Positions 18,992 to 31,752 of a stretch of DNA of 64,000 nucleotides are shown here, in pieces. The notes beneath the pieces are model-generated. The model did no database searches, was not told the DNA's origin, and worked only from the letters and a program-made list of their open reading frames with translations. This stretch comes from an uncultured Pelagibacteraceae bacterium. Its GTDB lineage: Bacteria; Pseudomonadota; Alphaproteobacteria; Pelagibacterales; Pelagibacteraceae. A program made the position numbers and the translations under genes. Location of the stretch: positions 1 to 64,000 of the forward strand of contig CACLTO010000002.1 of the NCBI GenBank assembly GCA_902609915.1, read 5' to 3'. Within the stretch, counting starts at the first letter, position 1. Every line of letters starts with the position of its first letter.

Positions 18992-19068
18992 TGGTGGGCC
19001 CGCCAGGACTCGAACCTGGGACCAATACATTATGAGTGTACTGCTCTAACCAACTGAGCTACAGGCCC
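18992..19068 (-). tRNA. tRNA with CAU anticodon (elongator Met, or Ile2 if lysidine-modified)
   Basis: Full cloverleaf GGGCCTGTAGCTCAGTTGGTTAGAGCAGTACACTCATAATGTATTGGTCCCAGGTTCGAGTCCTGGCGGGCCCACCA; CCA encoded. Confidence 0.95.
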
Positions 19069-19171
19069 TTGGAATTAATTAGTTATTACAACAATTTTAA
19101 AATTCATACAAGTTAACTTTACAAATGATAAATTGTATTTTTCAAAAATTTTAGACACAAACTTTGCATTC

Positions 19172-19192
19172 GTTGGTAAATCCGTTGGTAAG
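19172..19192 (+). repeat. Paired GTTGGTAA direct repeats near left island end
   Basis: GTTGGTAAATCCGTTGGTAAG; matching pair at 31525-31544. Confidence 0.7.
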
Positions 19193-19229
19193 TAATTTTT
19201 ATTTTTTGGTAGTTAAAATGTCCTTATAT

Positions 19230-22200
19230 TTAACTATTCTTTTTTTTAATTATTAGTTTCTTTTCATATTTTTTTTTATTTTCTTCTTTTTCAAGATCTA
19301 AATACTTAGACTCTAAGCTATACCAATCAAGATCGTCCGTATTAATATGATCCATTCTGTTCCAATTTTTTCGGTAATCACTATCTTCTTCATAATCCTC
19401 TATATATTCATCGTAAAATTTAGGATTATCATATTTCTCTTTTTTAAAGGCTACTCTTGCATTTCTAAATTCAGAAAAACTTAGTGAGTTCCACATTATT
19501 TCTAAAGTCTTGATCTCTTTAATATTAATTATTTGATCAAAATTTATTGATTTAAATGGGATATATGTTTCATTACCATACTGCTGTATACAAAGAGTCT
19601 TTAGTTTCTTTAGTTTACTAATTTTCTTAAAATCTAAAACTTGTTTATCGAGTTTATGAGAAAATTGTTTATCTTCAGATAAGTAATAGTCAAAATATTC
19701 CGATCTAATAGCAATACCAAAGGTTAGATTGAGTTCTTCTAATGATAAAAGTCTGTTTGTAATATTGTTTATTATATCTTGGATAATCGTTTGATTTTTA
19801 ATATCCACATTTATATTCAATGTTAGTTTTTTTATTTTATGATTTATAAAATTTATAAATTCACCACTTCCTTTATAACTAGATGAAATATTTCCATAAT
19901 GATCATCTTTAAAGGGTCGATCTCCCAAACTTAAATTAATATCTTCAATTTTTTTACAATTTTTAAAAAATGATAAGTCTTGATCACAAATTTCTTTTTG
20001 GGGCTCGTAAATACTTAAATGATCATCTTTATTAAAATGCATTACTGAGAGACTTATTGTTTTTAAATTTTCAACAGATCTTAATTTGCTTAGATCAGAA
20101 GCTAATATTGCTGGATAAATTCTTATTTCCTCTAACTTATTTAAATGATGAAGCTGTGAAAAATCTACATTCATATAAGACCAAGTATCGTTATAACTTA
20201 AATTAGTTGAATATCCTGTATAACCTAGAGTGTGTTTAAATAATCCTTTATTATAAAAATTATGCAAATTTCTAATTTCAATCTTTTGAAGATTGGGGCA
20301 GTTCTCAAATTTTGATAATGTTACCTTATCTAAAGATTTTCTATGATGATTTTGAAAAAAATTCATTTTTAGAATTTTTAACTTTGGAAAATGAGGTAAG
20401 TCTAAATTCTCACTTTGTAAACAATCACTTAATTTCAAATATTCTAAATTCTCTATCGGTATAAATTTATCAAATTCATCTAATTTTATATATTTTTCTT
20501 GCCATGGATTTACACCCTCAATCCAACAATGAGTAAGGTTTTTAATTTTTTCATCTTTAATTTCTATATTATCTACTATCTGAGTGAAATCTGTAGATTT
20601 TAAAAAGTCTTCTTTAGATAAATTACTATCTTTAAAATCATTTGATAAAACAAATTTTTCACTGATATTTGTTGCAACAGAAAATAACTTATCTTTTATT
20701 TTATTTATCCCCTCTTCATTATTATTAACTAACACTCCTACAATTTTTTTGGCATTCCAATCCTTTTCTGTATAAGTCATTTGATGAGAAACGTGATGCA
20801 AAGAAGCCCCAAAATAAATATATATCTTTTTAAAATTTATATTTGGAATTTTGCCTATTGCAGTTTTTTTGATTACTAAAATTAAACTATTTTTATCTGG
20901 TTTAAAATCAGTATCCGAAAATCCAATTATTCTAATTATCTCTTCATATACATATTTAAACAGGTGATTTAATTTAGACCATTTTTTATCATCATCATTG
21001 ATATATTTAGGATAATGACTTTTTAAATCATCTATCTGATCATTATTTATAAATGTTTGATCGGGAAAATAGTTAGATTTATTATAAAAAATATCATCTA
21101 CAACAACTACTTGGTTGACATTTTCATTTATAAATTTATCAGTCAATAAATCTAACTGTTTATCGCTTGCACCCAATATTGTGAGTTTTTCTTTTAAATT
21201 ATTAATCTTTATTGAATTATAAAGATAAATTAAATGAATTTTGAAACTGTCTGAACTGTCTTTGTCATCTAGTAACTTTTTAATTTCAGGATGATAAATG
21301 AATATTTGAGTATCTTTATTATTTAATCTGAGTTCATAAATAAATTTTACTAAAAAACTTATTTGATCTGCACTCCAATCTTCATCACCATCATATTTAT
21401 CATTTTTAGATAAATCAAAAATAATTGTTTCTAATTTATTTTGATTTTTAAATAGATGTTCCATTACATCCAATTTTTTTCCTCTATCAGCTCCAGAATT
21501 GCTAATATTTAAAAACCTAAAACATGATTTAAAAATGAAAGATGATGGATTTGATTTGATAACTTCTTCATAACTTTTATTTTTTTTGATGACATAAGGT
21601 TTGCCATATTTATAAGTATCTTTGTAATAATCAAATTCACTGATATTAAAAACATTTTTATCTATAACTATATTATTTTCTTTCAAGATATTTAAAAACT
21701 CATTATCTAATTGAAGACAAAGGTTTGTTCTAGTATCTTTGTAACCACAGAAAAAATTTACAGTTTTAAAGTCTAGATTTAATTTTGATGTATTATTAAC
21801 ATTATTTATAGTGAAATTAGTTTTTTGTTTTTCTAAAATTTCTACAAAGTGATCTAATCCGTTTGTATATAAATCGCTTATATTTCCATTATCAATGACT
21901 ATATTTTTCAATTTTTTAAATCGTTTGAAATCATCTAATTTTGTATTCCAATAAATTTCTTTGAATATTTTTTTGTTGTCTTCATCATCTTTAAGTATTC
22001 TTTGTTTATAGGTTTTATAATTTATTAATTTAATAACCTCTAGGTTTGGAAACACAGTATGGCTATTTGGGACATCAGTTATTGAATTATGTTTATTCTG
22101 GTAGCTTTTTTGCCAATATGTATTTATTTCAAAATCTGGTTCGTCCAGATTTGGAAATTCCAGACAGAATTCTTTTAAAGAGGAAAGTTTTGAATTTTTT

Positions 22201-22466
22201 TCAAATTTGTCATTTTTTGATTTATTAAAATAACAATAATGATTAAGTTTTAATTTATTTAATTTTTTAAGTGAAAAAATTGCATTATAAAATTTCTTAA
22301 AATCGATGAAGCTATCTTTAAGAATTAATGTTTCTAAATTTTTAAGTTTAGATAATTTAGACCAATCATCATCTAAATTTATTCCTTCCAATTCTAATAT
22401 TTTAAAATTATACTTAGTATTTAATAAATCTAAATTTGATATTTTATTTGTATCTTCAATATTCAT
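19230..22466 (-). CDS. Giant leucine-rich-repeat-like protein (1078 aa), unknown function
   Basis: Repeated LRR-like units (LSKLKNLETLILKDSFI, LPHFPKLKILKMNFF, CPNLQKIEIRNL, ISKLKKLKTLCIQQYG) either side of a non-LRR central region. Confidence 0.7.
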   Translation of the reverse strand: MNIEDTNKISNLDLLNTKYNFKILELEGINLDDDWSKLSKLKNLETLILKDSFIDFKKFYNAIFSLKKLNKLKLNHYCYFNKSKNDKFEKNSKLSSLKEFCLEFPNLDEPDFEINTYWQKSYQNKHNSITDVPNSHTVFPNLEVIKLINYKTYKQRILKDDEDNKKIFKEIYWNTKLDDFKRFKKLKNIVIDNGNISDLYTNGLDHFVEILEKQKTNFTINNVNNTSKLNLDFKTVNFFCGYKDTRTNLCLQLDNEFLNILKENNIVIDKNVFNISEFDYYKDTYKYGKPYVIKKNKSYEEVIKSNPSSFIFKSCFRFLNISNSGADRGKKLDVMEHLFKNQNKLETIIFDLSKNDKYDGDEDWSADQISFLVKFIYELRLNNKDTQIFIYHPEIKKLLDDKDSSDSFKIHLIYLYNSIKINNLKEKLTILGASDKQLDLLTDKFINENVNQVVVVDDIFYNKSNYFPDQTFINNDQIDDLKSHYPKYINDDDKKWSKLNHLFKYVYEEIIRIIGFSDTDFKPDKNSLILVIKKTAIGKIPNINFKKIYIYFGASLHHVSHQMTYTEKDWNAKKIVGVLVNNNEEGINKIKDKLFSVATNISEKFVLSNDFKDSNLSKEDFLKSTDFTQIVDNIEIKDEKIKNLTHCWIEGVNPWQEKYIKLDEFDKFIPIENLEYLKLSDCLQSENLDLPHFPKLKILKMNFFQNHHRKSLDKVTLSKFENCPNLQKIEIRNLHNFYNKGLFKHTLGYTGYSTNLSYNDTWSYMNVDFSQLHHLNKLEEIRIYPAILASDLSKLRSVENLKTISLSVMHFNKDDHLSIYEPQKEICDQDLSFFKNCKKIEDINLSLGDRPFKDDHYGNISSSYKGSGEFINFINHKIKKLTLNINVDIKNQTIIQDIINNITNRLLSLEELNLTFGIAIRSEYFDYYLSEDKQFSHKLDKQVLDFKKISKLKKLKTLCIQQYGNETYIPFKSINFDQIINIKEIKTLEIMWNSLSFSEFRNARVAFKKEKYDNPKFYDEYIEDYEEDSDYRKNWNRMDHINTDDLDWYSLESKYLDLEKEENKKKYEKKLIIKKKNS

Positions 22467-22520
22467 GGGTTAACTTGTATCAGTAGAATATTATTATTTT
22501 GATATAATTGAAAATATAAA

Positions 22521-24068
22521 ATGAGTAAAATTATTGGTATAGACCTAGGAACTACTTATAGTGCGATTGCACAATTAGATGATTTAGGTACACCAGAGGT
22601 ATTAGCATCTACAGATAATAATAAAAAAATCACAGCAAGTTCTGTTTATATTAAAGATCAAAATATGATCGTTGGTGACAAGGCTCTTGATGCATTAGAA
22701 ACAACTCCAAAACAAGTTGTTACGGAGACTAAAAGGCAAATGGAAAATGATGTAGTTTATTCAGTTGATGAAGGAAAATGGGTAGATAGAGATGAAAAAA
22801 ATAAAGATTATTATTCTCCAGCTCAAATCTCTTCTTTCATATTATCAAAACTTAAAGGTTATGCATCTGATGTTAAGAAAGCAGTCATAACTGTTCCAGC
22901 ATTATTTGCTGAAAAAGCAAGAGTGGCTACATTAGATGCAGCAAAAATGGCTGGGATTGAAGTTATAAGTTTAATCAATGAGCCAACTGCTGCTGCTTGT
23001 TATTATGCAAGTCTGCCAAATGTAAAAAAAATTACAGGTAAAATTTTAGTATTTGATTTAGGGGGTGGAACATTTGATGTAACTGTTTGTGAAGTGCAAG
23101 GGGAAGAAGTTGAGGTAATAACTAGTAGAGGTGATAAATGGCTCGGCGGTAAAGACTTTGACAAAGAATTGATTAATTTAATTAATGAAAAATATAAAAA
23201 TCTAACTGGAAAAGAATTAGATATCGATAATAATTATTCTAAGTATATGGAAGTAGCTGAACAAGTAAAAAGGGTTTTGTCAGTTAGAGATAAACAAATA
23301 GAAACAGTTGATGGACCTGATGGTGCAAAAGAAATAGAAATTACAAAAGCAGAATTCGAACAATCAATACAAACACACATTGAAAAACTTAAAATGCTTA
23401 TGGAAGAAGCTCTTGATGGCAGTGGATTAAAAGCAGAAAATATCAGTCATACATTGCTAGTTGGTGGATCAACTAGAATTCCAATAATTACAAAAACCAT
23501 TGAACAGGTGATGAAAAAACCTCCATTGAAAGGTGTAAATGTTGATGAGGCTGTAGCTGCAGGGGCTGCAATTTATGCAGGTTTAAAATCAAAAAAAAAT
23601 TTAAATGAGGCACAAAAAAAAGCAATTTCAAACGTTAAACTTCAAGATGTTTGTAATTTTTATTTAGGAACATTAGTTCAAGAAGACGATCCTGTTTTGA
23701 ATAGATCAGTTACCAGTAATTTAATTTTGATAGATCGAGATACCGCTTTACCAGCAACGAAAAGTTCAAGGTTAGTAACACTCCATGATGATCAAGAGTC
23801 TATCTCGATAGATATTACTCAAAGTGAGGGAAGAGAAAGAAACAGAGAATTTGTAAATATTATTCACCAAGGTGAACTTAAATTCCCTGACAAAAAGCCT
23901 AAAGGTAGACCTATCGATGTAACTTACACTTATGACACTTCTGGTAAACTTCATTGTATTTTTGAGGACGAAGCAACTAAGGAAAAATACGAAGTATCAA
24001 TAAGACCAGAGTCTGCAGAAGATTTAAGAAAAAACTATGAAGCTATTGAGCACATAGTAATTGAATAA
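22521..24068 (+). CDS. Hsp70/DnaK-family chaperone lacking the C-terminal helical lid (515 aa)
   Basis: IGIDLGTTYSAIA, VFDLGGGTFDVTV, INEPTAAACYYA, LLVGGSTRIPI; ends after a beta-type substrate-binding region. Confidence 0.92.
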   Translation: MSKIIGIDLGTTYSAIAQLDDLGTPEVLASTDNNKKITASSVYIKDQNMIVGDKALDALETTPKQVVTETKRQMENDVVYSVDEGKWVDRDEKNKDYYSPAQISSFILSKLKGYASDVKKAVITVPALFAEKARVATLDAAKMAGIEVISLINEPTAAACYYASLPNVKKITGKILVFDLGGGTFDVTVCEVQGEEVEVITSRGDKWLGGKDFDKELINLINEKYKNLTGKELDIDNNYSKYMEVAEQVKRVLSVRDKQIETVDGPDGAKEIEITKAEFEQSIQTHIEKLKMLMEEALDGSGLKAENISHTLLVGGSTRIPIITKTIEQVMKKPPLKGVNVDEAVAAGAAIYAGLKSKKNLNEAQKKAISNVKLQDVCNFYLGTLVQEDDPVLNRSVTSNLILIDRDTALPATKSSRLVTLHDDQESISIDITQSEGRERNREFVNIIHQGELKFPDKKPKGRPIDVTYTYDTSGKLHCIFEDEATKEKYEVSIRPESAEDLRKNYEAIEHIVIE

Positions 24069-26715
24069 TTATTTTGTGATTAAAAAAAAAGATATTAAAA
24101 AAGATCCCCAAAGACTTAAACATTCAGTAAGGTTTGACATAGAATTTTTTTTAGATCCAAAGGAAAAAAAAGTCAAAAAATTATTAATAGTATTTGTTCA
24201 AAAAGGAGGAATTGCTGATAAAAAATTCTTAATTGGTGACGTAATTAAATCTGTTAATGGTGTTACGGTTACAAATAGAATTGAATTAGATAATGAGGTA
24301 AATAAAATAGATTGGGGGGATGAAGTTATTTTTGATGTAGAAAGAAAAAATAAAATACAGGAAGTAAAGATTAAAACATTATCTTTTGATAATTATAGAA
24401 AAAACCATACAGTTTGGGCAATAGATCTTAAAAAAGAAAAAAATCAAATGATTATTGATAGTTATGGTATTGAATACAATTACCATGATTATGTAGAAAA
24501 AGGAGACATATTATTAGAAATCAATTCTGTAGAAATAAACTCTCTTGATGATTTCAATAAAGAAAAATCAAAATATAAAGTTGGTGATACTATTGAGTTT
24601 AAAATAAAAAGAAAAAAAATTTCTCAGATAAAAAAATTTGAGATCAAATTAATAAATTTTAAAAAAGCAATAGAATTGAACAAAAAGTCATGTGATGACT
24701 ATTGGTTAAAAAAAGCAGGATCACTATTGTTTAAAGAGTGGGTGGATGCAGACTATGGTTACAACCATGAAGATTGGTGGGGAAGACGTGAGGAAATTTT
24801 AAAGTTAGAAACTATTGCAGAACGTTTTTCTGATTCAAGACATTCTTATAATTCTGACTATATAAAAGATTGGAAAAACAAAGATGCCAAACTACTTACA
24901 AGCTTATTAAAACCTGAATACAAAGATATCAATTTCAAACTTAATTTTTTTAGTTTGATTTTTAATTCAAAAATTATTTCAAAATTAAGAAGTCTGAATT
25001 TAAAAAAAGAGTGTTGCTATTCATATATTTTAACAGGAAAAGCTGTTGGCGGAGATTTGGATAAAGATGTACCTGCAAATATTAAAAATTTTGAAAAATT
25101 AATTTCTGTCAAAGATAAAAAAAAGGAAGTATTCGTTGATGAAATTTCAGAAACATCCTTAAACTTTTTTTTTAATGAAATGGTTGATAAAAAAAAAAAT
25201 ATTTTTATCAAATATGAATCAGATAAGAAGTTTTGGCAATTTTCAAATAAAAAAAAAGCAGAGCTTTCCACTAAACCTACTTTAGAAAATTTTAATAATA
25301 TTGGTTTTGAAAATATTGCAAATATTTTTGAACATTGGTTAATATCAAAGTATAGATTTAATAAAGCTCAATCTAAGTTAGCAGTGGACGATTTCTGTAA
25401 AAGTTTTTTTTTAGAATACCCAGATTTTAATATTGAGAGAATAAAGGAGATTGAAAAAATGGATCTTCAAGTTGAGCCAGAATATGATGAAGATGATTAT
25501 GATTCCGATTACCAAGATAAAATTTATGTGTCAACAAGTGTCACTAAAAAGAAAGTTGCTGGAAAAGAGTCATTTGTGGTTAAATTGAATAATTTACCTA
25601 CTGATGAAGAAATAGAAAATCATACTGTTGGAGGAAAAAAAATATATCTAAAAATTTATGTTTATGATGTAACAGATTTAGATGAAGATAAATACTTCAA
25701 GATTCAAGACAATGGTGAAGATACAGGTCAATATTTTCTTAACAATTGTCATGTAGTTAAAACAGAAGATTTATCATGGTCTGAAGGTAACGGAATTTTA
25801 GTTCAAACTACAGAATTGGAAACTTATGGAATGACACAACTATCTGAATTGGCTTTTCCATACTCAAAATTACAATTACCAAAATATGGAAAAAGAAAAC
25901 TATCTTTTAGAACTTTTATTTGCAACGAAAATCAAAAATTTGATGAAAACAACGGAAGATTTATTAGTTACGATAATCCATCTTTTAGAGCAGAAGAATA
26001 TTTTTTAGAAAGTTATTCAGAAGGATTTGATGAATATAATGATTATCCAGATATTTTATCCTATTCATCTTCTGAAATAGAAGTTGAGTACAAACAGCCA
26101 GGATATTTAGAAATTAATAGACGTAAATATAATGATCTAAAAATTGCTTTAAGCTTAGCTTTAAACCAGGATGATAAAAATAATCAGAAAGCTAATTTAG
26201 AAAAAATTAAAGACTCAGTGAGATATGGCGATTTTACTGTTGAGGGAAATATCTATAAAATACTTAGTTTGAAAAAAAATTATGAAAAATCTTTAAATGA
26301 AAAATTAAATTTAGATAATATTTTAAAAGATTTAAAGAAAAATTCTGTAATACACGAAAGATATGAAATAATAGATTTTTTACTTAACCTAGCTACACAA
26401 GATGAAACTTTTAATAGTAAAGAAAATAAATTCATAGACAAGGTTTCAAAAGAACTAGAATTAAATAAAGAGAAATATCAAGAAATTAAAAAACAAAAAA
26501 CTTCATCTGTAAAATTTGTAGATTTTGGCGATGAGGTAGAAGAAAGTGTATTTGGGATTAATAAAGATATGACTAAAGATGAGAAGCTTAAAATTTTAAG
26601 AAAAGAATATAGTAGATGGAATGCTCTAACAAATAATACTGACAAAATGATCAGAGAAAGAGCTAAAGAAATGAGAGATTTAGCGGCAAATTTAAGATCT
26701 CAATATAATAAATAA
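24061..26715 (+). CDS. Hsp70-partner candidate: two PDZ-like domains plus TerB-like/helical C-terminus (884 aa)
   Basis: TTG start overlapping the hsp70 stop; PDZ-like GGIADKKFLIGDVIKSVNGVTV and YVEKGDILLEINSVEI; C-terminal acidic helical region (DFLLNLATQDETFNSKENKFIDKVSKELEL) and FGINKDMTKDEKLKILRKEYSRWNALT. Confidence 0.65.
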   Translation: MNNYFVIKKKDIKKDPQRLKHSVRFDIEFFLDPKEKKVKKLLIVFVQKGGIADKKFLIGDVIKSVNGVTVTNRIELDNEVNKIDWGDEVIFDVERKNKIQEVKIKTLSFDNYRKNHTVWAIDLKKEKNQMIIDSYGIEYNYHDYVEKGDILLEINSVEINSLDDFNKEKSKYKVGDTIEFKIKRKKISQIKKFEIKLINFKKAIELNKKSCDDYWLKKAGSLLFKEWVDADYGYNHEDWWGRREEILKLETIAERFSDSRHSYNSDYIKDWKNKDAKLLTSLLKPEYKDINFKLNFFSLIFNSKIISKLRSLNLKKECCYSYILTGKAVGGDLDKDVPANIKNFEKLISVKDKKKEVFVDEISETSLNFFFNEMVDKKKNIFIKYESDKKFWQFSNKKKAELSTKPTLENFNNIGFENIANIFEHWLISKYRFNKAQSKLAVDDFCKSFFLEYPDFNIERIKEIEKMDLQVEPEYDEDDYDSDYQDKIYVSTSVTKKKVAGKESFVVKLNNLPTDEEIENHTVGGKKIYLKIYVYDVTDLDEDKYFKIQDNGEDTGQYFLNNCHVVKTEDLSWSEGNGILVQTTELETYGMTQLSELAFPYSKLQLPKYGKRKLSFRTFICNENQKFDENNGRFISYDNPSFRAEEYFLESYSEGFDEYNDYPDILSYSSSEIEVEYKQPGYLEINRRKYNDLKIALSLALNQDDKNNQKANLEKIKDSVRYGDFTVEGNIYKILSLKKNYEKSLNEKLNLDNILKDLKKNSVIHERYEIIDFLLNLATQDETFNSKENKFIDKVSKELELNKEKYQEIKKQKTSSVKFVDFGDEVEESVFGINKDMTKDEKLKILRKEYSRWNALTNNTDKMIRERAKEMRDLAANLRSQYNK

Positions 26716-26719
26716 TTTA

Positions 26720-27850
26720 CTATAATTTTATCGTTTCAATTAATTTTTTTAAAATAGAACTTGCATCCTTATTATGATTATCAGACTCAGCAAATATTTC
26801 TTTTAAAGTAGATATTATTTTTTGTTTATCAGATTTCATTAAAATTTTAGCTTCATTAAAGGCATTTTCTATTCTTTTTTCTACTACAGACATCTTTGAT
26901 ATATTCAAAAGACTTTTTATACTTACTGCTGCTTTTTCTCCAAATCTCTTTTTGAATTTTTCTTGTTCGTCTTTAGAAAACTTTTTATCTGCAAGATAGA
27001 TACTTAATGAGCCCCATAATAAAGCTTTATTAATTATTTCTTTATTAGAGTTATCTAATTCATTTCCAGTTACTTTTTTTATACTTTCATTAATCTTTCT
27101 ATCAACCACTTTTAAATCATAGATACCTTTTTTGTCTGTTTTGAAAAATTCGTTATATTCATGGCTCATTGAGAACCATATTAAAGCCTGCATTCGATTA
27201 AGAAATGTTGGATGAGTTGCATAAAGTAAATTTTTATTTCCTTGTAACTCTTTTAACTCTCTCAATTGATCTAAGTAAGAACTAAAATTAAAAGATATGT
27301 GTTCATCACTAAGACCTGTGGAAATTTTCAGCATTGCTCTTAAAGAATTTTCAATACTTCCTGAGCCTAATAAACCAGCACGATCAGCTGATATTTCTGC
27401 AGCCCTACTTAAATTAAGAAAATTAAGATATTCAGTTCTGGTTCTTGCTTTTTCAATAGGTGGATAAAGGCTATGTTGATAATAAAAATGAGAAATCTCA
27501 TGGGCAATAACGCTCTCTAATTCACCTGAATTTAGTAATTCAACCATTTTCGAGGTAATAATTATTTCTGCATTCAAACTTTGAGGCATCATTGCACAAG
27601 CTGCTTGGGTTTGAATGTGATTTGCAGTGATAAAAAAATTAAAGTTATTTTTAACACCAAGTCTTTTAAAAACATTGTCGATGGAACTGGCAATTTTTGG
27701 AAATAAGTTTTCACTTACTTTAACTGAACTTGATAACAAATTTCTCAAGTTTTCATTATTAAAATTTTTGGTCTCGTTTTTGTTATTTTGAACAATTCCT
27801 AATTCATTCAAATCATCATAGGTATATCTAAATCTATCTAAAAAATTCAT
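26720..27850 (-). CDS. M48-like zinc metallopeptidase with TerB-like C-terminus
   Basis: HEISH motif in SVIAHEISHFYYQH, downstream EISADRAGLL; C-terminal YLADKKFSKDEQEKFKKRFG. Confidence 0.8.
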   Translation of the reverse strand: MNFLDRFRYTYDDLNELGIVQNNKNETKNFNNENLRNLLSSSVKVSENLFPKIASSIDNVFKRLGVKNNFNFFITANHIQTQAACAMMPQSLNAEIIITSKMVELLNSGELESVIAHEISHFYYQHSLYPPIEKARTRTEYLNFLNLSRAAEISADRAGLLGSGSIENSLRAMLKISTGLSDEHISFNFSSYLDQLRELKELQGNKNLLYATHPTFLNRMQALIWFSMSHEYNEFFKTDKKGIYDLKVVDRKINESIKKVTGNELDNSNKEIINKALLWGSLSIYLADKKFSKDEQEKFKKRFGEKAAVSIKSLLNISKMSVVEKRIENAFNEAKILMKSDKQKIISTLKEIFAESDNHNKDASSILKKLIETIKL

Positions 27851-27873
27851 TTATTTATGTGTTTTTAAATGTT

Positions 27874-28467
27874 TCATAATAATATTTTTTTCTGTCTTTC
27901 CCTTCTTTGATATTCTCTATCTCTTTCTTTCTTTATTTCCCATTCTTCATCAGAAATATTTTTCCATCTTTTCTTTGCTGCAATCATATCGTATTTCTTT
28001 TTATGTTTTCTTTGCTCAACTGACATATTTTCATAATATTTTATATTCCTCTCATTTTTTTTTTCTTTTTGTTTATCAGTTAAGTTTTCATAAATTTTTT
28101 TATCATATGCTCTCTTTTCACTTTCGCTCATATTGTCTCTTATTTGCTTGGTGGATGCTCTGTTTCTAAGTATATATAAATCTATTTTTCCACTATTAAA
28201 TTCACTAATACTATTTGTTGTTGAGTGCATTATTATTTTATTGATATTTGATCTTTTGCCGATTTGATAAAATTTTAAAGAATTTCTCTCAGTTTCTTTC
28301 CTTGTAAGAAGAGCACTTCTTTTATTCAGATTTAACTTGCCCTCACCTCTAAAATCTTTCTTGGTCCAAGTGGGATGTTTATCAATTATTTTTTGAATTT
28401 CCTCATCACTTCTTAATTTCCATTGATTGTGACCTTCTGGATTTCTGTTATAGTTTTTTTTTTTCAA
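27874..28467 (-). CDS. Highly charged protein with degenerate N-[MLI]-[ST] repeats, unknown function
   Basis: ORF in a tight minus-strand operon; four repeat-like units (NMSESEKRAY, NLTDKQKEKK, NMSVEQRKHK, NISDEEWEIK). Confidence 0.6.
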   Translation of the reverse strand: MKKKNYNRNPEGHNQWKLRSDEEIQKIIDKHPTWTKKDFRGEGKLNLNKRSALLTRKETERNSLKFYQIGKRSNINKIIMHSTTNSISEFNSGKIDLYILRNRASTKQIRDNMSESEKRAYDKKIYENLTDKQKEKKNERNIKYYENMSVEQRKHKKKYDMIAAKKRWKNISDEEWEIKKERDREYQRRERQKKILL

Positions 28468-28468
28468 A

Positions 28469-28648
28469 TTATTCTATTAGATCTTTCCAACTTTTTTCAG
28501 CTTCAGAATTAGAGTTATCGTTATTTTTATTACTATCTTTTTCTTTTTTCATTTCTTTATAGAGATTAATAAAATCTTGTCTGGAACCTTTTTTCTTCCC
28601 CATTTCTCTAAATTTATTCGTCCATTTATTTCTATTTTTTTTATCCAT
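28469..28648 (-). CDS. Small charged protein (59 aa), absent from the ORF track
   Basis: ATG at 28648 to TAA at 28469: MDKKNRNKWTNKFREMGKKKGSRQDFINLYKEMKKEKDSNKNNDNSNSEAEKSWKDLIE; fills the operon gap exactly. Confidence 0.6.
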   Translation of the reverse strand: MDKKNRNKWTNKFREMGKKKGSRQDFINLYKEMKKEKDSNKNNDNSNSEAEKSWKDLIE

Positions 28649-28649
28649 T

Positions 28650-29738
28650 TTATTTTTTATTTATTTTCCATTTCATTATAAATGCCTCGACTCCAATCTT
28701 TTTAATTTCTTCATACAATTCTTCTAAATTATTTTCACTTGTTTCATTTAATTCAATTACATCTTCAATATTCTTTTTAGTTAGTTCTAGTTTCTTTCTT
28801 TTTTTTTCAGCAATATTTATTTGTTGCATAAGTATATTTGTAACCTCAGGACTTTCGATGAATTTGATAGCTGATAATACGTTATCTTTACTGCCTTCAT
28901 TTTGTTTATTTTTTTCAGCTAAATACCATCTTTGTGTAGTAGCAAGAGCTCTTAGAGCAGTAAAATCATATTTACATATAAATATACTACCTTTATGAGC
29001 ATAAGGCACATCTTTTGGAAAATCTTTGGGTGTTGTTCGGGTAAATATAATGCCAACATCAGATTTTGAGTCTTTCATGTCGTTTTGAAGTTTTATAATC
29101 CAATCATTACTCCAAGCCTTAGTATTTTTTCTCTCATAAAGTATTTTTGCAACGACCATATCATCTTCTTTAATTTCTTGTAACCAGTCACCACCAGCTA
29201 CACCTTTGGCATATTCAGCAATTTTATCATTTTTATCATTGAATATTTTTTTTAAAAAATCACCTAATTGCATTTCTGAGGATGAGCCTTGATCAACAGT
29301 AGTGCCCTGTGTCATTTTTTTTCGAAGATCTTCAACTGTTGCAATGTATCTCTGCTCTTTTAGTTGCCACAGTTTTTTTTCCTCGTCTTTTTGTTCTTTT
29401 AAATTTTCTTTTTGTTCTTTAAGTTTAGTCTCATAAAGAGTTTCATAATGCTCTTTATTTTCTTTATCTAAATTTTTAACTTTTGTATCAACAGCCTCTT
29501 TTACAGCTTTTTTAATATCATTTTCTTTTTGTTCGTTAATTGATTTAATTTGGTTTTCCTTTTCTTTATTTGAATCTTCTAAATCTTTTAATTTCTTTAA
29601 ATTTTCTTTTAATTTTTGACCTTCTTCTTTTTTAATTCTATCTCTTGTATTTGTCTCTATTTCTCTTAAATGTGAAGACAAACCATCTTCCATCGGAAAC
29701 TCTTTTTTACAATGTGGACATTTTATTGTTTGGCTCAT
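28650..29738 (-). CDS. DUF2130-like protein: zinc-finger plus coiled coil plus nuclease-like C-terminus
   Basis: N-terminal CPHCKKEF; coiled coil; SSSEMQLGDFLKKIF...GGDWLQEI...ILYERKNTKAWSNDWIIKLQ. Confidence 0.8.
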   Translation of the reverse strand: MSQTIKCPHCKKEFPMEDGLSSHLREIETNTRDRIKKEEGQKLKENLKKLKDLEDSNKEKENQIKSINEQKENDIKKAVKEAVDTKVKNLDKENKEHYETLYETKLKEQKENLKEQKDEEKKLWQLKEQRYIATVEDLRKKMTQGTTVDQGSSSEMQLGDFLKKIFNDKNDKIAEYAKGVAGGDWLQEIKEDDMVVAKILYERKNTKAWSNDWIIKLQNDMKDSKSDVGIIFTRTTPKDFPKDVPYAHKGSIFICKYDFTALRALATTQRWYLAEKNKQNEGSKDNVLSAIKFIESPEVTNILMQQINIAEKKRKKLELTKKNIEDVIELNETSENNLEELYEEIKKIGVEAFIMKWKINKK

Positions 29739-30452
29739 TTAATTTTCTTTATTTTTTTTTTCATTATACCATCTACAATTATCACAATCATCACCCGAAT
29801 TTGGCATTTTTTCAGATTCTAAACAATTCTTTAAATCAACCAAACTATCTTCAATATAATCTGTTTTTAATTTATAAGATAATAGTGTTGTTTTAAAATT
29901 GACTTTTTTATTAAATGTTTTTTGACTTTCATCTTGAGCATTGCAAATCAACCAATAACCAGTGTCGTGAACTTTAAAGTCATTAAGTTTTAAAAGATAA
30001 GCGTAAAAATCAAGCTGTCTTAGATAGGACTTGTGATAATGTTTATCAGATGAAGTATATTCTTCTAATTTTTTATTAGATGTTGCTTTATAATCCAAAA
30101 CAACAATTTCATCGGTATCTTTGTTTAACCATAAGTCGTCTAAAGCTCCAAAGATTTCTATATCAGTTTTTTTTGACCTAGCCCTAACACCAACTCTATT
30201 AAACCTGTATTTTTTTAAAGTCTCTGGATCAAGACCATTGTAGGGAATAAAATTTAATTCATATTCTTTAAATATTGGATGGGGTTCACCTTTTGCTCGT
30301 AATTCATCAAATTCCTCTTTTAATAAAGCGTCTACTCTAGAATTAATTGGATGACCTGGAGTACCCGGAGGTTTGATTTGATGCTTTTCTAAAAGATAAA
30401 AACACAAAGGACATTTTATAAAGCTATCCCACTTAGATCTACTTATTGCCAT
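29739..30452 (-). CDS. PD-(D/E)XK nuclease, RecB/Cas4-like
   Basis: SRSKWDSFIKCPLCFYL, IFGALDDLWL...IVVLDYKATS, SYLRQLDFYAYLL, C-terminal CDNC. Confidence 0.82.
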   Translation of the reverse strand: MAISRSKWDSFIKCPLCFYLLEKHQIKPPGTPGHPINSRVDALLKEEFDELRAKGEPHPIFKEYELNFIPYNGLDPETLKKYRFNRVGVRARSKKTDIEIFGALDDLWLNKDTDEIVVLDYKATSNKKLEEYTSSDKHYHKSYLRQLDFYAYLLKLNDFKVHDTGYWLICNAQDESQKTFNKKVNFKTTLLSYKLKTDYIEDSLVDLKNCLESEKMPNSGDDCDNCRWYNEKKNKEN

Positions 30453-30738
30453 AAGTTCTCCAATTTTTATTCTCTTTTAATTTTTTTGATAAAACTATCA
30501 TCTCTATCTCATTTTTTTTATAATCATGTCTTATCCTTAAGTAATGTACTAATCTCAATAGATTATATGGTAAAAAATATATGTTTAAAATAAGTTTTAA
30601 GACAGGCCTTGTTTTGTAAAATTCTTGATCGGCTTGTTTTGTAATTTCCTTGTTAACTAAATACATGTCAATATCATGTTTCCAGCTTTTACAGTAAGTT
30701 AGACGATCTTTAAGTTTATTTTTAAAATAGTTATTCAT
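30439..30738 (-). CDS. Small basic hypothetical protein
   Basis: Operon ORF; ATG 30738 (MNNYFKNKL) gives an ATGA overlap with the upstream small ORF, so the track start at 30768 is probably too long. Confidence 0.5.
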   Translation of the reverse strand: MNNYFKNKLKDRLTYCKSWKHDIDMYLVNKEITKQADQEFYKTRPVLKLILNIYFLPYNLLRLVHYLRIRHDYKKNEIEMIVLSKKLKENKNWRTYGNK

Positions 30739-30896
30739 TTTACATACCTCGCAATTTGTTTGTAGCATTGTGGTTTGACTGAAGATTTACCTAGGATTTT
30801 AACTTCCTCATTTTTATAATAGTAAATCCAATAATAGTGTTGATCATTTTTTTCATCAAAAACTTCCTCTATCCTAATTTCTGTTATCTTATCCAT
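30735..30896 (-). CDS. Small protein (53 aa), absent from the ORF track
   Basis: MDKITEIRIEEVFDEKNDQHYYWIYYYKNEEVKILGKSSVKPQCYKQIARYVK; translationally coupled at both ends (TAATG and ATGA). Confidence 0.6.
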   Translation of the reverse strand: MDKITEIRIEEVFDEKNDQHYYWIYYYKNEEVKILGKSSVKPQCYKQIARYVK

Positions 30897-31165
30897 TAGT
30901 GAAGAACCCTTTCTTTTTGAATTAATTCAAAATAAATACGATAAAAAGCTAGACGTGATTTTCTCATAAAATCATCCCACTCTTTATCAGTGTTAGTGTT
31001 TAACCAAGGTAGTTCTGATTCTTTAAGATTAAATAATTCAATAAAAACTCTATCAATTGAACTAAGTAACTTACTGATATCTTTCTCGCCCTGAACAGCT
31101 ATTAAGTTAATAAGCTTTTCGTGATCTGAGAGTGATTTTATCTTTTTTGATTTTTTGACCTTCAT
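30896..31165 (-). CDS. Small hypothetical protein, first gene of the island operon
   Basis: ATG 31165 (MKVKKSKKIK) preceded by AGGAAGG; the track start at 31192 lacks this RBS. Confidence 0.6.
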   Translation of the reverse strand: MKVKKSKKIKSLSDHEKLINLIAVQGEKDISKLLSSIDRVFIELFNLKESELPWLNTNTDKEWDDFMRKSRLAFYRIYFELIQKERVLH

Positions 31166-31357
31166 ATTTACCTTCCTGAACGTTAAGCTCAAAAAAGATA
31201 AATCTGTCTATTTTACTGACCATATATATTTTACCATTTAGAACTTTCGTTCTTAATTGTTAGTTTTAGGTAAACGATTTTTAGATTGCGTACACTTATT
31301 CCAATTAAGTCTCAGATAAAACTAAAAGTTTTACCTCTTAAAAGGTCGGCAATGCAC

Positions 31358-31412
31358 TGAAGGCAGGAAATATACACTGGTCAGTAAAATTTATGTATAT
31401 ATCTTGCCTTCA
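31358..31412. repeat. Long imperfect inverted repeat / stem-loop
   Basis: TGAAGGCAGGAAATATAC (31358-31375) pairs with GTATATATCTTGCCTTCA (31395-31412), 16/18 identical arms, 19-nt loop. Confidence 0.75.
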
Positions 31413-31524
31413 ACAAACATTTAAACCTTACCTAAAGAATACTATATAAGATTTTAAATATTTTTTCAATTTATAAATTTTTTGCATAGCAAAGATCTAA
31501 AAGTTTGTCTCAGACATTGATTTT

Positions 31525-31544
31525 GTTGGTAAATAGTTGGTAAA
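31525..31544 (+). repeat. Paired GTTGGTAAA direct repeats near right island end
   Basis: GTTGGTAAATAGTTGGTAAA; counterpart of 19172-19192. Confidence 0.7.
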
Positions 31545-31618
31545 TTTTTATAGAAAAAAAAGTCCTCTAATGGAGGTTGATTTTAAATACCAATTTAAGA
31601 TATTTTTTTGAGTCGTAA

Positions 31619-31660
31619 ATTATAAGTGTACTGCTCTAACCAACTGAGCTACAGGCCCTT
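31619..31660 (-). pseudogene. Truncated 5' half of the CAU tRNA (displaced att site)
   Basis: AGTGTACTGCTCTAACCAACTGAGCTACAGGCCCTT is identical to the intact tRNA from anticodon loop to 2 nt beyond the 5' end; no T-arm follows. Confidence 0.9.
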
Positions 31661-31752
31661 AATAAGTTTGTTGTTTACAACGTTTTTCATCACCACGCAA
31701 GTTGAGATATTTTGTTTTTAATTTATGATAATGATTTAATTGATATTGAAAT

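Follow-up and report, generated by a model that had tools for sequence, protein, structure and literature searches.

How can a genomic island enter a tRNA gene when it has no integrase of its own, and why is the tRNA half found at its far end the 5' half? The question is raised by a 64,000-nt stretch of DNA (the window), taken from the beginning of contig C2 in a 70% complete genome of SAR11 type (Pelagibacteraceae). In SAR11 bacteria, whose genomes are streamlined, flexible genes must have some way in.

Insertion in the CAU tRNA gene and displacement of its 5' half

The following features define the locus.

18992–19068, minus strand: tRNA gene with a CAU anticodon, a hybrid of the native 3' half and an island-supplied 5' half (ARAGORN; empty site at L048; alignments of the ends)
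19031–19070, plus strand: attL, the left attachment core, equal to the tRNA 5' half through the anticodon loop (39/40 identity with 31621–31660)
19069–19170, minus strand: island-supplied tRNA upstream region, a probable promoter replacement (93% identity to the equivalent G043 site; unlike the empty site)
31621–31660, plus strand: attR, the right attachment core, equal to the displaced native tRNA 5' half (repeat alignment)
31659–31752, minus strand: displaced native tRNA upstream region (71–73% identity to the tRNA upstream regions of G014, the empty site, and G045)

The tRNA 5' half at 19031–19070 was repeated at 31621–31660 with 39 of 40 bases the same. The final 36 (31625–31660) were identical, which is the recurrence that a preliminary description of this DNA had reported, and no match was obtained in 100 shuffles of the sequence. 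A longer alignment of the two copies covered 45 nt at 96% identity, and a weak match (85% over 72 bp) extended to about 31687. A search of the genome's own assembly found no further copy of comparable length. The repeats bracket about 12.6 kb with nine larger genes, and the full tRNA and the displaced fragment lie at opposite ends, in the same orientation and on the correct side for a tRNA-integrated island. ARAGORN labels the gene as tRNA-Met; the sequence may be tRNA-Ile2 (CAU, lysidine), in which case the island lies in an AUA-decoding tRNA.

The copies differ at one base, within the anticodon triplet. Nine of 10 other islands retain ATTATGAG over the anticodon in their right copy, and thus the homology spans tRNA position 1 to about 39. 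This extent is consistent with crossover within the anticodon loop, where integration is known to occur (PMC8371274; PMC4383910). Site-specific recombination in or near that loop would have brought the 12.6-kb island into the tRNA gene.

An empty site is present in G014 (L048), a genome of the same genus, where mlaA, mlaC, the tRNA, a methyltransferase gene, tRNA-Val, rpoD and dnaG follow one another without an insertion. There mlaC-tRNA is fused straight to the sequence found after 31660, as had been predicted for a relative lacking the island, and in many further genomes of the genus mlaC-tRNA is joined directly to tRNA-Val and rpoD. The right flank of the island aligned with the tRNA upstream region of the empty site at 71% identity (score 31.5; shuffles 4.2 ± 4.0), whereas the current tRNA upstream region on the left did not match it (score 4.0) and instead shared 93% identity with the left end of the G043 island. 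These alignments indicate that the host 3' half stayed in place while the native 5' half and its upstream region moved rightward and were replaced by island copies, in agreement with the displacement originally proposed. The attachment site of the island would have brought in a tRNA 5' half together with upstream sequence; recombination would then have joined the host 3' half to the island 5' half and sent the host 5' half and upstream sequence to the far end. Expression of the tRNA would consequently be driven from the island-supplied region. A consensus promoter scan found no strong promoter at either island end. The arrangement makes it testable whether insertion alters tRNA expression. On the 3' side of the same tRNA, about 0.5–2 kb of extra DNA separates it from mlaC in many relatives (L050, L062, L065–L069, L071, L073).

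This polarity, described beforehand as unusual, is indeed uncommon yet known: 159 of the 3,919 islands found by Islander have a 5' fragment and 3,760 a 3' fragment (PMC4383910). The opposite, 3'-half duplication was found at the same tRNA in the integrase-less elements of G045 (L046:2460–3915) and G031 (L061:1687–3855), and in G488 (L148), which carries an integrase and has a left end like that of G031. Both polarities therefore use the CAU tRNA of the window. A second CAU tRNA has elements beside its 5' end with integrases of 314–326 aa (L132:5021–7654, an element of 2.6 kb with the 5' half duplicated as two copies of 56 nt; L133:1–3305). Both arrangements occur there: G283 has the 5'-half form, with 56 nt present twice, and G082 has an integrase gene with a lone 3' half beside it; integrases from elements of the two arrangements are 62% identical. 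The shorter L132/L133 integrase was rejected as a helper for the window island because it targets this other tRNA and its repeats differ (TGTCACAA type); it is an analogue and not a donor. Beside tRNA-Thr in G186 an integrase gene was found, with no second tRNA half on the contig. Polarity is probably set by which tRNA half the attachment site of an element holds and not by special chemistry, and with both polarities present at one gene, it can be tested whether either half can be restored by an integrase family acting at the anticodon loop.

Shared ends and variable cargo

A tandem motif, GTTGGTAAAT(N1-2)GTTGGTAA, lies about 90–105 bp inside both ends of the island.

19172–19191, plus strand: left arm-type motif GTTGGTAAATCCGTTGGTAA
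31525–31543, plus strand: right arm-type motif GTTGGTAAATAGTTGGTAA

The tandem motif was present in 13 of 201 genus genomes, and a reversed control gave 0 matches. The tRNA 5' half was present twice in 13 of 300 genus genomes, and arm pairs were present at both ends in all 13, with sequence variants in G129 and G287 (left arm) and in G244 (GTTGGTAATACGTTGGTA at both ends). In the 201 genomes where both features were searched for, the motif occurred in 9/9 genomes with two copies versus 4/192 others (Fisher P = 6e-13); each of these four is interrupted by a contig end. A scan of 85,488 species genomes yielded at least 25 left ends and at least 30 right ends at the CAU tRNA. Arm-to-core distances clustered at 92–95 and 103–105 bp for the 25 left ends listed and at 85–86, 94 and 105–106 bp for the 30 right ends listed, a spacing of about 10 bp, near one helical turn. 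The GTTGGTAA motifs paired near each end are probably bound by a tyrosine integrase as arm-type sites. The same arm motif also lies directly upstream of an unrelated-looking 405–407-aa integrase (Arm-DNA-bind_3) in Methylophilaceae (L267:1–1900; L275:2983–4273), and in L267 it adjoins an apparent tmRNA region.

Between its arms the window island carries the following cargo.

19230–22466, minus strand: 1078-aa protein without a family match, leucine-rich in appearance (relatives in other genomes)
22521–24068, plus strand: HSP70/DnaK-like protein, 515 aa (PF00012, 300 bits)
24061–26715, plus strand: PDZ and TerB protein, 884 aa (PF13180, PF05099)
26720–27850, minus strand: M48 family peptidase, 376 aa (PF01435)
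27874–28467, minus strand: 197-aa protein without a family match
28650–29738, minus strand: DUF2130 protein, 362 aa (PF09903)
29739–30452, minus strand: PD-(D/E)XK nuclease family protein, 237 aa (PF12705; weak Cas4 models)
30439–30768, minus strand: 109-aa protein common to 6 islands of the family
30896–31192, minus strand: 98-aa protein common to 3 islands

Defence-system models found nothing in the window island beyond the weak Cas4 matches of the nuclease. Complete islands of the family measure about 2.4 to 19.6 kb, and their cargo varies to include DNA methyltransferases, PrsW proteases, ligand-gated-channel-like proteins and an amine oxidase; some large cargo proteins are presumably of Z1 type. 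Two of the ligand-gated ion-channel-like proteins are encoded at L258:3116–5893, and the longer has relatives in G019, G244 and G287. Islands stand in tandem in two genomes, G107 and AG-899-N21. At the centre of the G107 tandem (L106:8060–8090) three motif units overlap with no tRNA half, as if the middle core had been deleted. On sequence grounds, the window island is a member of a widespread family with shared ends and variable cargo. One chromosomal address is thus reused by elements with common ends and interchangeable cargo, and one sibling strain has the likely engine, described below.

Cargo genes that the window shares with G187, G165 and G144 were 77–92% identical at third codon positions, versus 55–68% for the flanking core genes mlaA, mlaC, rpoD and dnaG in the same comparison. 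Since silent positions of the cargo are far more alike than those of the flanking genes, cargo moves between genomes. The high identity starts at the tRNA, with mlaC at 74–77% and the adjacent left end of the island at 89–94%. Furthermore, the 1078-aa protein was also found in G071 at a different place, adjoining a thioredoxin-like gene, so the cargo is not bound to the CAU tRNA site. Capture and horizontal transfer of the island are well supported by these sequence comparisons.

The missing integrase and its possible source

A PF00589 profile search found no match inside the window island; the one match in the genome was a 323-aa frame on contig C7. A tblastn search for integrase remnants was negative for the window island and for the other integrase-less islands, and its one side match, not significant (E = 0.24), lay within the G214 element, which already bears an integrase. 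The island therefore lacks an integrase gene of its own, and the earlier failure to recognise a recombinase is borne out by both searches. The window's genome, 70% complete, yielded no integrase with such arms. Island-bearing host genomes examined had at most one clear tyrosine recombinase each, Xer-sized (307–325 aa) and away from the island.

The preliminary description had suggested looking for related islands with an integrase, and one was found at the same tRNA. In the single-cell genome AG-899-N21 (L311, L258 and L355, contiguous), an element, here element A, encodes a tyrosine integrase of 474 aa (PF00589, phrog_216). Small genes come next, and then a DNA polymerase A of 606 aa (92 bits) and a small terminase of 255 aa (34.5 bits); element A terminates in its own arm and tRNA 5' half. 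Directly after it in tandem lies an integrase-less cargo island with the same ends and its own arm and tRNA 5' half. The left end of L311 shared 95% identity with the corresponding end of the integrase-less G105 island; compared with the window it has the same arms and the same 5'-half core, with left ends 74% alike. Both G105 and the window island thus have ends matching those of an integrase-bearing element, as expected of elements mobilised in trans. AG-899-N21 is the sole integrase-bearing relative with these ends that was found at the window's tRNA, and the 474-aa integrase is rare, with three distant full-length relatives in 399 genus genomes. The original statement that mobility would depend on a helper or have been lost can now be extended by a specific candidate helper, the AG-899-N21 integrase, which would act in trans.

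Viral contigs were searched for the exact arm motif GTTGGTAAATAGTTGGTAA and for the 31-nt tRNA 5' half, and neither was found. A gapped form of the motif matched 22 viral contigs, none with a detected integrase nearby or detectable similarity to the islands, and a peptide-pattern search of viral contigs for relatives of the 474-aa integrase gave none. A 9.2-kb contig of the viral collection (L402), reached via its small terminase, does encode a relative of this integrase. From the integrase gene to polA its gene order is that of element A, with terS at the opposite end of the contig (about 35–63% identity), and 11-bp-period TTGGT-type repeats stand immediately upstream of the integrase gene, as they do for integrases of the same family in G036 and G122. 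L402:1–8490 resembles a circularly permuted AG-899-N21 satellite.

We consider it probable that the window holds a mobile, integrase-less genomic island in a CAU tRNA, whose movement most likely depends in trans on the integrase of an element resembling a phage satellite. In this scheme the integrase encoded alongside polA and terS in AG-899-N21 would act on the arms and cores of the cargo islands. Action in trans is the best explanation, and its main rival is decay to immobility, in which each island lost its integrase separately and accumulated cargo later. A 32-aa N-terminal integrase remnant at the same tRNA in G200, and the presence of an integrase at just 1 of the 25 left ends listed, would fit such a history. 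However, arms and cores are retained at both ends despite very different cargo, cargo was recently shared among genomes with much more diverged flanking genes, and the tblastn search found no remnant in the integrase-less islands; we therefore regard decay as unlikely.

Spread by homologous recombination through conserved flanks or island ends would account for the 89–93% identity among left ends of several islands and for the tandem islands. We judge it improbable, since the high identity ends at the tRNA, and the precise duplication of the tRNA half and the phased arm distances are a signature of integration. Least credible, and very improbable, is integration by host Xer recombinase, as for dif-targeting elements: a single Xer-sized gene is the only tyrosine recombinase found in most hosts, but Xer sites do not have paired arm motifs, and the arm motif type adjoins the integrase gene in L311, with similar repeats in L402, G036 and G122.

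Mobilisation in trans by the satellite integrase might be taken a step further. Tentatively, the cargo islands could be parasites of a parasite, making use of the integrase, and possibly also of the small terminase, of a phage satellite that in turn lives off pelagiphages; genes would then be delivered in two steps, possibly by packaging with phage, and the tRNA upstream region would be swapped at each insertion. No excision or circular form of the cargo islands was seen. If trans-mobilisation is true, the islands dropped by integrase-based searches are an active gene pool.

Comparison with known systems

Like the window island, VEIMEs and tycheposons have marine hosts, insert at tRNA genes and carry variable cargo. 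The integrase, DNA polymerase A and small terminase of element A agree with a VEIME or phage satellite, which has its own integrase with replication and/or packaging genes; the window island lacks this set. Tycheposons are defined in PMC10872708 as tRNA-associated with their own tyrosine recombinase; the window island shares the tRNA association and lacks the defining recombinase. In Fig. 4F of that paper, a 20-bp Methylopumilus repeat, described as the last 20 bp of tRNA-Lys, reads as a tRNA 5' end when reverse-complemented, and the Methylopumilus islands may be another 5'-half family.

Islander-type tDNA islands likewise have a full tRNA at one end, a displaced fragment at the other and an inferred crossover near the anticodon loop. 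The window island differs in displacing a 5' fragment and in having no internal integrase, and would be rejected by the Islander integrase filter. Archaeal pTN3-like integrases also have an attachment site in the tRNA 5' half (PMC8371274); the likeness concerns the attachment site alone, since these systems are archaeal and the integrase is carried by the element. Mobilizable 'hitcher' elements and phage satellites that need a helper rely, as the window island seems to, on the machinery of another element (PMC11389934). What the window island seems to borrow, in contrast to hitchers, is the integrase, and its likely donor is a satellite.
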